A stretch of DNA of 64,000 nucleotides from Janibacter corallicola NBRC 107790. GTDB taxonomy: Bacteria > Actinomycetota > Actinomycetes > Actinomycetales > Dermatophilaceae. How positions within the stretch are numbered: the first letter of the stretch is position 1; the number at the start of each line of letters is the position of its first letter. Where the stretch lies: the NCBI RefSeq assembly GCF_001570965.1, contig NZ_BCSR01000003.1:1-64000 (forward strand). The letters are read 5' to 3'. Positions 3,305 through 59,745 of this stretch are shown here, piece by piece. The notes beneath the pieces were generated by a model, which saw nothing but the letters and a program-made list of their open reading frames with translations, searched no databases and was not told where the DNA came from. The translations under genes and the position numbers were made by a program.

Positions 3305-4617
3305 CCGACTCCGGCCAGACCCCCCTTCGTGTCGCGCTGCTCGGTGGCGGCGTCGTCGGTGGCGCCGTCGCCCGCATGCTGGCCACCCAGGCGGACGACC
3401 TCGCCGCGCGCATCGGTCGCCCGCTGCAGCTCGTCGGCGTCGCGGTGCGCCGCGCAGGGAAGGACCGCTCCGAGACCGGCATCGACCCGGAGCTGTTCAC
3501 CACCGACGCCGAGGCGCTGCTGGACCGCGCGGACATCGTCGTCGAGCTGATCGGCGGCATCGACCGGGCCCGGGAGCTCATCCTCGCCGCGATGGAGCGG
3601 GGCGCCTCGGTCGTCACGGCCAACAAGGCGCTGCTCGCCGAGGACGGCCCGACGCTCTACGCGGCCGCCGCCGAGCACGGCGTCGACCTGTACTACGAGG
3701 CAGCGGTGGCCGGCGCGATCCCGATCCTGCGCCCGATCCGCGACTCGCTCGCCGGTGACTCCATCCAGCGGGTCATCGGCATCGTCAACGGGACGACGAA
3801 CTTCGTCCTCGACGCGATGGACACCAGCGGTGCCGGCCTGCCGGAGACCGTCGAGCAGGCCCAGTCGCTCGGGTACGCCGAGGCCGACCCGACGGCAGAC
3901 GTCGAGGGCTTCGACGCCGCAGCGAAGGCCGCGATCCTCTCCTCGCTGGCCTTCCACACCCGGGTCGCGAGCAGCCAGGTCCACCGCGAGGGCATCACCT
4001 CGATCAGCTCCCGCGACGTCCAGGCGGCCAGGGAGATGGACGCCACCGTCAAGCTGCTCGCGATCTGTGAGCGCGTGGAAACCCCTGCCGGAGTTGGCGT
4101 CTCGGCACGCGTGCACCCGGCGATGATCCCGCTCACGCACCCGCTCGCGTCGGTGCGCGGGGCCTACAACGCGGTCTTCGTCGAGGCGGAGGCCGCCGGC
4201 CAGCTGATGTTCTACGGGCAGGGGGCCGGTGGCGACCCGACCGCGAGCGCGGTCCTCGGTGACATCGTCGCGGTGGCCCGCACCCGGGTGGGTGGGGGCC
4301 ACGGCCCCGGCGAGATCGCCTACGCCGACCTGCCGGTGCTGCCGATGGGTGAGGCGATCACCCGCTACCACGTCAGCCTCGACGTCGCGGACCGGCCGGG
4401 CGTGCTGGCCGCCGTCGCGCAGGTCTTCTCGGACCAGGGCGTCTCCATCGAGACCGTCCGCCAGGAGGTGGGCGGCGACGGGGGCGGACCGCGCGCCGAG
4501 CTGATCATCGTCACCCATGCGGCACGCGACGCCGCCCTTACCGCCACGGTCACCGCCCTCGCGGGCCTGGACCAGGTCAACGAGGTCACCTCCGTCATGC
4601 GAGTGGAAGGAAGCTGA
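3301..4617 (+). CDS. hom: Homoserine dehydrogenase
   Basis: NAD(P)-dependent oxidoreductase of 438 residues that reduces aspartate semialdehyde to homoserine, the branch point to threonine and methionine. It has an N-terminal Rossmann motif ([10 protein letters not shown], about residues 14-23), the central NGTTNF segment and catalytic region, and a C-terminal ACT domain from about residue 355 ([19 protein letters not shown]). The ACT domain suggests threonine feedback inhibition, as in corynebacterial Hom. It overlaps lysA by 4 bases and thrC starts 1 base after its stop, so the genes form an operon. Confidence 0.97.
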
Positions 4618-4618
4618 C

Positions 4619-5722
4619 ATGGGCGCACCCCAGTGGCGCGGCGTCATCACCGAGTACGCCGAGCGCCTGCCGATGCTCGAGGGAGCGCCCGTCGTCACCC
4701 TCCGGGAGGGCGGCACCCCGCTCATCCCCGCCGAGCACCTCAGCGAGCTCGTCGGGGCGGAGGTGCACATCAAGTACGAGGGGCTGAACCCCACGGGGTC
4801 CTTCAAGGACCGCGGCATGACCACCGCGATGTCCGTGGCGGCGGCGAAGGGGGCCAAGGCCGTCATCTGCGCCTCCACCGGCAACACCTCCGCCTCCGCG
4901 GCGGCCTACGCCACGAAGGCGGGCATGACCTGCGCGGTGCTCGTGCCCGAGGGCAAGATCGCGATGGGCAAGCTCTCCCAGGCCATCGCCCACGGCGCGA
5001 CGCTGCTGCAGGTCGAGGGCAACTTCGACCACTGCCTCGGCGTGGCCCGCAAGCTCGCCGAGGCCTACCCGGTCGAGCTGGTCAACTCGGTGAACCCGGC
5101 GCGCATCGAGGGGCAGAAGACGGCCTCCTTCGAGATCGTCGACGCCCTCGGTGACGCCCCCGGCATCCACTGCCTGCCGGTCGGCAACGCCGGCAACATC
5201 ACGGCCTACTGGCGCGGGTACCGCGAGTACGCGGCCGAGACCGAGGGCGTCGGCGGCCCGCTGGCCGCCGTCGCCACGCGGACCCCGCAGATGTGGGGCT
5301 TCCAGGCGGCCGGCTCCGCGCCGATCGTGCTCGGGCACCCCGTCGACGAGCCGGAGACCGTCGCGACCGCGATCCGGATCGGCAACCCCGCCTCGTGGCG
5401 GCAGGCCGAGGAGGCGCGGGACGACTCCGGCGGGTCGATCGGGGCCGTCACCGACGAGGAGATCCTCGACGCCCACCGGCTGCTCTCCTCGCGGGAGGGG
5501 ATCTTCGTCGAGCCGGCCTCGGCCTCCTCGGTCGCCGGGCTGCTGCAGGCCCACGCCGCCGGCCGCGTCCCGAAGGGCGCGACGATCGTGTGCACCGTGA
5601 CCGGCCACGGTCTGAAGGACCCGCAGTGGGCGCTGAAGAACGCCGACGGCTCGGACGTCGAGCCGGTCCGGGTCCCTGCCGAGGCCTACGCGGTCGCCGC
5701 CGAGCTGGGTCTGCAGGACTGA
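4619..5722 (+). CDS. thrC: Threonine synthase
   Basis: PLP enzyme of 367 residues that converts O-phosphohomoserine to threonine. The PLP lysine is in GSFKDRGMT (about residue 62), with [13 protein letters not shown] and the phosphate-binding loop [12 protein letters not shown] downstream. Length fits the short actinobacterial ThrC class. The ATG at 4619 is preceded by GTGGAAGGAAG, a good Shine-Dalgarno sequence that also overlaps the hom end. It works between Hom/ThrB and the threonine pool; the operon order hom-thrC-thrB is standard for the phylum. Confidence 0.97.
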
Positions 5723-56874: not shown

Positions 56875-57825
56875 ATGGCTGAAGTCCTCGTCCTCGTCGA
56901 CCACGCGAGCGGTGCGGTGAAGAAGCCCGCCGCCGAGATGCTGACGGTCGCCCGTCGCTTCGGCGAGCCGTCCGCCGTCTTCATCGGCCCCGGCGCCGAC
57001 ACCGCGAAGGACCTGCTCGCGCGCTACGGCGCCGAGAAGATCTACTCCGTCTCCGACTCGAGCGCCTGGGAGCACCTCGTGGCCCCCCAGGCCGAGATCC
57101 TCGCCCAGCTCGTGAGCGAGAAGCAGCCGGCCGCGGTGCTCATCCCGAGCAACTCCGCCGGCAAGGAGATCGGCGCCCGCCTCGCCATCAAGACCGAGTC
57201 CGGTCTGATCACGGACGTCGAGGACGTCCAGGCAGGCGGCGACGGCCCCGTCACCACCCAGTCGGTCTTCGCCGGCAGCTACACCGTCGACTCCAAGGTC
57301 ACCAAGGGCACGCCGATCATCTGCGTCAAGCCGAACTCGGCCGCCCCCGAGCAGGCCGCCGGGGCGGGCGCCTTCGAGGAGCTTTCCGTGAGCATCTCCG
57401 AGGACGCCAAGGCCGCGAAGATCACCGCGTCCGAGCCGAAGAAGGCCTCCGGCCGCCCCGAGCTCACCGAGGCGGCGATCGTCGTCTCCGGTGGTCGCGG
57501 CACCGGTGGTGACTTCTCCCCGGTCGAGACCTTCGCCGACACCCTCGGTGCGGCCGTCGGCGCCTCGCGCGCAGCGGTCGACGCCGGCTGGTACCCGCAC
57601 TCCTCGCAGGTCGGCCAGACCGGTAAGCAGGTCAGCCCGCAGCTCTACGTCGCCGCCGGCATCTCCGGCGCGATCCAGCACCGCGCGGGCATGCAGACCT
57701 CGAAGACGATCGTCGCCGTCAACAAGGACGAGGAGGCGCCGATCTTCGAGCTCGTCGACTTCGGCGTCGTCGGCGACCTCTTCCAGGTCCTGCCCCAGGC
57801 CACGGAGGCCGTCAAGGGCAAGTGA
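56875..57825 (+). CDS. etfA: Electron transfer flavoprotein subunit alpha
   Basis: 316-residue ETF alpha (FixB family). The C-terminal FAD-binding domain has the signature [61 protein letters not shown] and a final [24 protein letters not shown]. Length and features are normal. ATG follows ACAAGGAG. It forms the heterodimer with EtfB encoded just upstream and is followed by a terminator. Confidence 0.96.
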
Positions 57826-57838
57826 GCCCAGCCTCGAA

Positions 57839-57868
57839 GGGCCCCGCACCAGCACTGGTGCGGGGCCC
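57839..57868 (+). terminator. Terminator of etfBA
   Basis: A perfect 13 bp GC-rich stem (57839-57851 with 57856-57868) with a GCAC loop, 13 bases after the etfA stop. Confidence 0.8.
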
Positions 57869-57907
57869 TCGTCGTGTCGTGGCTGATCCGGAGCACGGGG
57901 GTCTGTT

Positions 57908-58013
57908 ACTCGCGGGTACTGCACCATGCTCCGTGTCGCCGGCGAGGTGGATCGCCGGGAGATCAAGGTTCTGTCAGTTCTCGAGGTCTGAGGGTGGTGT
58001 AGTACCCGCGAGT
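57908..58013. repeat. Structured 106 bp element with 19 bp near-perfect terminal inverted repeats
   Basis: ACTCGCGGGTACTGCACCA at 57908-57926 matches the reverse complement of 57995-58013 at 18 of 19 positions. Between them lies a smaller stem (CCGGCGA/TCGCCGG). The AT-richer content differs from the surroundings. It could be a miniature inverted-repeat element, a pair of operator sites, or a structured RNA. Confidence 0.5.
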
Positions 58014-58052
58014 TGCGAACGTGCGTGGTCCCTGCCCCCGGTGACGCCGCGG

Positions 58053-59522
58053 CTACCGGTGCGGGGCCGGGCGGGTGCGGTCGCGCTGGTCCTTCAGGGC
58101 CATGACGAGGGCGACGAGCACGACGACGGCGATGAGCGCGAAGCCGACGGTGGTCGCGGTGGCCCAGTCGGTGCGGCCGAGCGTGGCGAAGACCGTCCCG
58201 GTGATGACGGCGATCCCGATCGAGGTGCCGATGCGCTGGCCGGTCTGCATCACCGCCCCGGAGCTGCCGGCGTAGGCGAGGGGGACCTCGGCGAGGGTGA
58301 GGGTCTGGTTGGGGCTGATGACCGCCCCCTGGGCGATGCCGATGAAGACGAGGCTGGCGACCAGCCACCACTCGCTGAGGTGACCGCCGGCCTGCAGCTG
58401 GACCACGGCGATGCTCATGACCAGGCCGAGCAGGGCGCAGTAGAGCCCGCCGATGACGACCTTGCGTCCGTAACGGGTGACGCGGCTGCCGGCCCAGTGC
58501 GCCGCGTAGGCGGAGATCAGGGCCGAGGGGACCCCGACGAGCCCGGCCTGGAAGGCGCTCTTGCCGGTGCCCTCCTGCATGTAGAGGGCGACGAGCACCC
58601 AGATGCTCGTCATCCCCAGGAAGTAGAGCATGACGATGAGGCTGCCGTTGGTGAAGCTGCGGATCCTGAAGATGTCCAGGTCGACCATGGGGGAGCGACC
58701 GGTGCTGCGGTAGTGGCGCTCCCAGCGCACCCACACCCATGCCAGGAGGATGCCGAGCGGGAGGGTGAGCCAGAACCACGGGGAGGTCCCGCCCTCGACG
58801 AAGGGGAGCATCGTCGCCAGCACCGCGAGGCCCAGCAGGATCGACCCGACCGGGTCCAGCGAACGGGAGGCATGGGCCCCGTCGGCGGCGCTGCCGGCGC
58901 GCCGGAGCAGCGGGCGGGGGAACCAGCGCAGTGCGAGGGCCAGACACACCAGCCCGACCGGCACGTTGACGAGGAAGGTCAACCGCCAGCCGATCTCCGG
59001 GCCGCCGAGCTCGATGAGCAGCCCGCCGAGGACCGGGCCGATGCCGACGGCCACCCCGACGACGCTGCCGAAGGCCCCGAAGGCCCGCCCTCGCTCGGCC
59101 CCGCGGAAGTACTGCTGGATCATCCCGACGCCCTGCGGGTTGAGCAGTCCCGAGCCGACGCCCTGGATGAAGCGGGCGGCGTTGAGTGAGTTCGGATCCG
59201 GCGCCAGACCCGCGGCGACGGAGGAGAGGGTGAAGACGATGACGCCGAGGACGAAGAAGCCCCCGCGTCCCATGAGGTCACCGGCCCGACCCGCGGCGAC
59301 GAGGACGACACCGAAGGTCAGCGCGTACCCGGCGAGCACCCACTGGGCGTCGGAGTCGCTGGCCCCGAGGCCCTGCTGGATCGAGGGCAGTGCGACGTTG
59401 ACGATGCTCACGCCGACGAGCGACATGAAGATCGCCAGGAGGAGCACCCAGAGGATCTTCCAGCGCTGGGGGTCCGGCTCGAAGGACTCGGTCTCACCCG
59501 ACCCGACCTGACCGACCGTCAC
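58053..59522 (-). CDS. MFS transporter, DHA2 (EmrB/QacA) family
   Basis: 489-residue transporter with about 14 transmembrane segments. Features of the 14-TMS drug:H+ antiporter group are the VNVALPSIQQGLGASDSDAQWVLAGYALTFG start, the motif A-like loop GRAGDLMGRGGFF, and motif C GSVVGVAVGIGPVLGGLL. The substrate is unknown. The GTG at 59522 is preceded by AGGAGGGAACGC, a perfect ribosome site, and is preferred over the ATG at 59558. It is convergent to etfBA and has no regulator next to it. Confidence 0.92.
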   Translation of the reverse strand: MTVGQVGSGETESFEPDPQRWKILWVLLLAIFMSLVGVSIVNVALPSIQQGLGASDSDAQWVLAGYALTFGVVLVAAGRAGDLMGRGGFFVLGVIVFTLSSVAAGLAPDPNSLNAARFIQGVGSGLLNPQGVGMIQQYFRGAERGRAFGAFGSVVGVAVGIGPVLGGLLIELGGPEIGWRLTFLVNVPVGLVCLALALRWFPRPLLRRAGSAADGAHASRSLDPVGSILLGLAVLATMLPFVEGGTSPWFWLTLPLGILLAWVWVRWERHYRSTGRSPMVDLDIFRIRSFTNGSLIVMLYFLGMTSIWVLVALYMQEGTGKSAFQAGLVGVPSALISAYAAHWAGSRVTRYGRKVVIGGLYCALLGLVMSIAVVQLQAGGHLSEWWLVASLVFIGIAQGAVISPNQTLTLAEVPLAYAGSSGAVMQTGQRIGTSIGIAVITGTVFATLGRTDWATATTVGFALIAVVVLVALVMALKDQRDRTRPAPHR

Positions 59523-59745
59523 GCGTTCCCTCCTGATCTCGATGTGTGCACCATGCACGCAAACGTCACCGTCGCGTGGAACATTCCGTCATGTGGCCCC
59601 TCGGGAAGGTCGACGTGACGTCCGGGAGGGGGTGGCCGCCGCGAGGCCGAGGAACTGCATCGGGGTGACGGACCCGGCGGTGGTCATCGCCCCGGCTGCC
59701 GTTCCATGACCACGGCACGGGTCCCTCGTCTGCTCGATCGCCCCC

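Follow-up and report, generated by a model that had tools for sequence, protein, structure and literature searches.

A solo hairpin element of Janibacter as a probable member of a REPIN-like population partnered by a Vsr-like nuclease

Between two convergent genes of Janibacter corallicola NBRC 107790 lies a short stretch of DNA that can fold into an imperfect hairpin, which raises the question of what kind of element occupies such a place. The original prediction offered a miniature mobile element or a small RNA. The window considered here is the whole stretch of 64,000 nucleotides in which the locus lies. The element is preceded by an etfA-like gene on the forward strand (56875..57825), whose DNA is present in all 16 genus genomes compared, and by a terminator-like hairpin outside the element (57838..57869, forward strand) formed by a perfect 15-bp inverted repeat. 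It is followed by a transporter-like open reading frame (ORF) on the reverse strand (58053..59558), and the convergent arrangement is as first described; both neighbours are named by reading. The terminal arms, 57908-57926 and 57995-58013, are indeed identical at 18 of 19 positions, and the inner stem that had been proposed is also borne out, since 57939-57945 is predicted to pair with 57952-57958 under both RNA and DNA parameters. This inner stem-loop (57939..57958, forward strand) belongs to the window copy and is absent from the consensus fold of the family described below. The locus folds better than 200 of 200 dinucleotide-preserving shuffles, whether as RNA (126 nt, z -5.5) or as DNA (112 nt, z -6.6). 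As a separate observation, the hairpin after etfA (57835-57873) resembles hairpins elsewhere in several genus genomes, at 80-94% identity over 30-60 bases, which is perhaps just common terminator sequence.

The element is slightly longer than first delimited. Across 98 family ends, taken from related copies, conservation begins 3 bases outside 57908-58013, at the motif GTNAC, where the information content at the G rises from 0.01 to 1.12 bits. Because this edge sits further out, the full element, a complete solo copy without assigned strand, is 57905-58016 (112 bp), and a covariance model built on 47 copies, the window copy included, matches the window at exactly these coordinates on both strands. 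Its outer 27-bp stem is formed by a left arm at 57905..57931 and a right arm at 57990..58016 (both forward strand), within which lie the terminal near-palindromes TACTCGCGGGTA (57907..57918) and TACCCGCGAGTT (58003..58014), neither with a strand.

A BLAST search with the window copy found 7 places in its own genome (G000), counting the window copy itself and one partial match of 55 bases; the other 15 genus genomes gave no match, so that a single genome of 16 was matched. The species-specific repeat suggested by this result was overturned by relatives recovered with a degenerate pattern and the covariance model. With at most 1 mismatch, the palindrome TACYCGCGRGTA occurs at 35 sites in G000 (reversed-pattern control, 14), 28 of which fall in 17 complete elements whose ends are spaced by 95-97 bp; by pattern, these 17 comprise 13 solo copies and 4 that bracket genes. 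The covariance model gives 37 strand matches in the same genome, or about 18 elements. An operator regulon was considered and rejected, as by hand count 7 of the 35 palindrome sites stand single, fewer than the 14 of the control, and lone operators are therefore not enriched. A degenerate two-arm pattern is matched in 13 of 16 genus genomes, 2-16 times in each (control, 0-1). Among the matches listed, one each in G001, G008 and G009 is a coding gene, and the non-coding ones fall at 96-99 bp where the pattern permitted 80-100 bp; the near-fixed length is partly a product of extraction, in which cores of 103-108 bp were accepted. The element is thus neither single nor unconserved, its copies being dispersed in its own genome, and the counts support a dispersed, miniature, non-coding repeat family.

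Base pairing of the outer stem is under selection. Over 28 pairs counted in 47 copies, 85.5% of positions are paired, with compensatory changes, and shifting one side of the stem lowers this value to 26-45%. Changes on both sides fill 165 cells, against 82.5 (sd 7.7) in shuffled alignments, a value reached in 0 of 500. Double changes affect 17 pairs where shuffling gives 14.9, a weak excess reached in 47 of 500 shuffles, and further pair types number 49 against 43.8 (8 of 500). The changes are concentrated in columns 19-25, the subfamily-specific inner arm.

A covarying stem would suit a structured RNA or a bidirectional terminator placed between convergent genes, with the bracketing of nuclease genes discussed below then serving as regulation of those genes. 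In keeping with this, the 79 solo elements extracted from 12 genomes lie in 35 convergent and 24 tandem gaps against 3 divergent ones, with 4 inside ORFs and 13 ambiguous under crude ORF calls. Extraction is not certainly complete for any genome; it leaves out G001, covers G004, G005, G012, G013 and G015 in part, and takes nothing from G003:C25 (L307), which is cut by a contig end. However, the family alignment has no T-run after the arms, etfA already has a terminator-like hairpin upstream of the element, and such a function leaves unexplained both the pairs around nuclease genes and the arms that follow the resident gene. The predicted small RNA fared no better, as an Rfam search of 57000-59000 at a relaxed threshold returned one chance-level match (E 0.57), on the etfA terminator hairpin, and no family on the element itself at E <= 1. 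We therefore consider an RNA or terminator role quite improbable.

The other half of the original prediction holds in part: the element does belong to a dispersed miniature repeat family, but the marks of a classical transposable element, a target-site duplication and an exact empty site, were not found. Terminal inverted repeats and dispersed copies are what a miniature derivative of a DDE insertion sequence would present. Across the 79 solo copies, however, no duplication of 2-9 bp rises above chance under four boundary settings, the 3-9 bp range included, and elements with covarying arms have long occupied sites shared between species, which leaves this origin extremely improbable. A clean empty site or polymorphic insertion was likewise not found at the etfA locus, in G013/G005, in G009/G008/G011/G014 or at the G000 C22 locus, where the comparisons gave shared sites or diverged DNA.

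The family does have a gene associated with it, which sits outside the 64-kb window. G000 carries two class-A nuclease genes, of 306 and 311 codons, each with an element copy on both sides. Genes of this kind occupy 51 places in 15 of 16 genus genomes, at a single location in most, and sorting by identity gives 13 class-A, 12 class-B and 26 class-C places. On inspection by eye, hairpins stand on both sides of most of them, and the hairpin sequence varies with the class. The upstream flank was compared with the reverse-complemented downstream flank, with the 99th percentile of 1612 cross-class pairs as the cut-off; 40 of the 51 loci surpass it (12/13 in class A, 9/12 in B and 19/26 in C) and 11 fail, while a far-flank control passes in 1 of 50. 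A wider set of 80 loci, kept from 145 relatives found in one scan of species genomes, spans Janibacter, Marihabitans, Knoellia, Terrabacter, Nocardioides and others. Here the cut-off was the 99th percentile of 6006 mismatched pairs, which 27 of 78 testable loci surpass and 51 do not (far-flank control, 0/74); the bracketing pattern is therefore clear without being universal. The last codons of the gene extend into the downstream element at 12 of 13 class-A loci.

Two further hairpin types were observed beside these genes. One, unrelated to the window family and centred on GCAAGAGTTTNAAACTCTTGC, brackets class C1 genes (L042, which is C13 of G000; also in G015 and G007); counts of its central palindrome, which take in the copies beside genes, range from 1 to 18 places in 13 genomes of the 16, with a control of 0 in all 16. 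The other, GTGTCGYACTGCAGTTC, is seen on both sides of class B genes, L041 among them. Separately, the 7-mer CTGTGGA, in the context CCTGTGGANRRC, stands between the upstream hairpin and the nuclease gene, as in L039 (gene start at 1501). It is found at 72 of the 80 wider loci and 39 of the 51 genus loci (controls, 0-1), mostly 41-50 bp 5' of the assigned start codon, and resembles a DnaA box (TGTGGAYAA).

Gene and repeat also co-occur. The class-A gene is present in 12 genomes, each of which has 8-37 strand matches to the element model, whereas it is missing from G002 (1 match, best E 0.003), G006 (2 matches, best E 8e-5) and G007 (2 matches, best E 0.004). The exception is G014, a genome 79% complete, with 14 strand matches and no class-A gene found. 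A Fisher test at four or more elements, a threshold set after the counts were seen, gives p = 0.007 (0.0022 without G014), and a rank test gives p = 0.012.

As for the encoded protein, both G000 members match DUF559 above the Pfam cutoff and MTES_1575 below it, and one matches AbiEi_4, also below cutoff. Among 47 relatives at E <= 0.01, MTES_1575 is found in 46, DUF559 in 45 and AbiEi_4 in 13. NCBIfam returns no family for any of five proteins, and the best match in a profile search of solved-structure sequences, 3hrl, is not significant (E 0.19); the fold assignments therefore rest on a structure model and on structure comparison. In the structure predicted for the J. limosus protein (pLDDT 95.1, pTM 0.90), residues 1-192 resemble the AbiEi antitoxin (6y8q; Z 10.4, rmsd 4.1, 174 residues aligned) and residues 1-192/194 resemble Rv2827c (1zel; Z 7.0). 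Residues 196-301 resemble NGO0050 (3hrl; Z 13.5), the homing endonuclease I-Bth0305I (3r3p; Z 12.7) and Vsr (1cw0; Z 10.9), in matches that span 91-99 residues. The partner is, as modelled, an AbiEi-like winged-helix protein fused to a nuclease of the Vsr/I-Bth0305I type (DUF559 / MTES_1575). Across 47 sequences, E200, E243 and H250 never vary and D232 hardly does; all four are putative catalytic residues. The gene is chromosomal and nearly absent from plasmids and phages: of 72,556 plasmid records, 2 encode the protein (partial matches at 28-33% identity), as does 1 of 50,697 phage records. A 38% identical relative was observed at 3941-4753 of MT837367.1, an unannotated 8.6-kb record, derived from human fecal samples, in the phage collection.

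Several known systems resemble this arrangement. As in the REPIN/RAYT system (REPtron), two inverted arms form a hairpin that is dispersed extragenically, mostly between convergent or unidirectional genes in Janibacter. In the cited portions of the REPIN/RAYT literature, a single resident chromosomal gene is flanked by full copies, the repeats persist for long periods, and they are more numerous in the presence of the gene (PMC3733652, PMC8049555); the Janibacter elements likewise flank one resident gene, are long-lived and are commoner alongside it. In contrast, the Janibacter partner is an AbiEi-Vsr fusion as modelled, whereas RAYT is an HUH tyrosine transposase, and where those REPs carry GTAG tags, the Janibacter family ends in CGTCGTAC...GTNAC and is nearly fixed in length. 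Its consensus after the palindrome is GAC, that is, CGTC/GTC on the other strand, and GTAG appears on one arm only of the window subfamily, through local change. Because GTAG tags and an HUH partner are both missing, the element is not filed as a REPIN-RAYT member. Size, the two inverted arms and gene context nonetheless resemble those described in the cited sections for REPINs (PMC3733652), and the elements might be REPINs mobilised by an ordinary RAYT encoded at another locus of the genome, with the nuclease gene as a passenger. Such a passenger would be hard to reconcile with three classes of nuclease gene, each the bracketed gene of a different hairpin, and the Pfam matches of the 47 nuclease relatives include no HUH/Y1 family; a RAYT-driven origin is very unlikely.

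TIRtrons offer a second comparison. In the part of the survey cited, a TIRYT gene lies between long terminal inverted repeats, some partly self-complementary, solo families are moderately abundant and paralogues carry different repeats, and the TIRYT enzyme is an HUH tyrosine transposase belonging to the IS200/IS605 group (PMC3733652). The bracketed gene, the solo families and the paralogue-specific repeats are shared with Janibacter, but the enzyme fold, predicted to be Vsr-like, is not. For CGTC-tagged REPs, the same cited sections report no dedicated transposase and list five phyla, Actinomycetota not among them, with 8-9-bp stems, 4-5-base loops and a CCA-like tail (PMC3733652). The class-A arm also reads CGTC beside the palindrome, whereas the Janibacter ends are a 12-nt palindrome without a loop and with a GTNAC edge. 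EDxHD homing enzymes have long recognition targets, that of I-Bth0305I being nearly 60 bp according to the cited portion of the source (PMC3943268); residues 196-301 of the partner are predicted to share the fold of that enzyme and of Vsr, but the partner gene is not in an intron and the DNA-binding half appears AbiEi-like. That half (residues 1-192/194) resembles AbiEi antitoxin (6y8q) and Rv2827c (1zel) in predicted fold, but is fused to a nuclease.

The distribution of solo copies among species bears on how the population is kept. At a flank-similarity score of 240, 47 of 79 solo elements fall in 14 sites where at least two species carry an element, and 32 have no shared-site partner among the regions compared. 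Elements persist at such cross-species sites. Many same-site pairs are no closer to each other than random pairs (0.65-0.76 against 0.71, sd 0.04), though close species pairs reach 0.96. Their inner arms track the copies that flank the resident gene: across 72 solos, the arms match the gene-flanking elements of their own genome at 9.69 of 12 positions against 8.47 (sd 0.41), a value reached in 0 of 5000 permutations. Within 12 shared sites, the own-genome arms match better in 27 comparisons and worse in 8, with 3 ties (0 of 3000 permutations). Without G000 the arm test stands at 2 of 2000, and when it is restricted to eight genomes the result is a weaker 52 of 2000; relatedness, or shared ancestry of arms and gene flanks, accounts for part of the signal.

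A case in point is the gap that separates a ligase gene from a hydrolase gene. G008 and G011 each hold one element there, at equal distance from the ligase stop, yet their arms differ, each resembling the gene flanks of its own genome, and their whole interiors differ as well. The same gap in G000 holds an element, the gene and a second element, whereas in 15 other genomes it measures 49-760 bp, too short to hold the gene. A small gene present in 9 of 12 relatives read is missing from G000 and three relatives, and the right-hand junction is therefore unreadable. The presence of the gene with both elements at a new place bears on homing, but is only suggestive.

The best rival explanation takes the elements to be immobile chromosomal marks, maintained by selection and bound or processed by the same AbiEi/Vsr-like protein in repair, replication or nucleoid organisation, so that arms and protein co-evolve as sites and reader. 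The 14 sites, with 47 of 79 elements common to several species, agree with such a static system, as do the low copy numbers, the covarying stem and the chromosomal, single-location genes of most genomes. It accords less readily with the 32 solo elements for which no shared site was found among the regions compared, with the whole-interior differences at shared sites such as that of G008 and G011, and with the new place taken by the gene and both elements in G000. We regard static marks as unlikely.

Element and gene are associated and have co-evolved, and the window element is probably a solo copy of a REPIN-like hairpin population that has a Vsr-like nuclease rather than a RAYT as its partner and is kept up in a homing-like manner. 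The AbiEi-like winged-helix half would recognise the element ends GTNACYYGCGGGTAC, and the Vsr-like half would nick or cut the element, perhaps while it is extruded as a hairpin in replication. Repair from another copy would then overwrite the cut element, giving a homing-like concerted change, and might occasionally seed a new copy or take the gene along. Binding, cutting and movement are what we infer from these associations. A broader proposal, to which we give somewhat short of even chances, is that Actinomycetota harbour a new class of intragenomic system, selfish or domesticated, in which each family of hairpins of near fixed length is kept and overwritten by its own bracketed AbiEi-Vsr nuclease through homing-like cutting and templated repair, the whole having evolved independently of RAYT/REPIN and with several unrelated pairs coexisting in a genome.

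The pairing of this protein family with repeats looks unreported in the open-access literature searched, preprints and subscription papers lying outside that search. It offers a likely substrate for a group of AbiEi-DUF559 proteins, and suggests what sort of enzyme might act on palindromic repeats with no known partner, such as the CGTC repeats in the cited sections of PMC3733652. If true, a second and unrelated enzyme fold would occupy the REPIN-RAYT niche, which would allow a comparison of why genomes keep hairpin populations for so long, and the matched hairpin-nuclease classes would be a ready set for specificity tests.

As for the site of the window copy itself, no element was seen by eye in about 420 bp after etfA in the other 15 genomes, most of which run on into a gene that G000 lacks there. 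The transporter-side flank resembles that of a G010 element at a score of 164, below the 240 used for shared sites, and the site may therefore be old. At both window 57825-58053 and L024 1131-2365, G000 lacks a neighbouring gene that is common in relatives, and elements may mark deletion points; at the L024 position, three relatives without the gene have no element there. Finally, G011 carries a pair of complete elements separated by 216 bp (L230 700-1030), the second of which matches the single shared-site element of G009.
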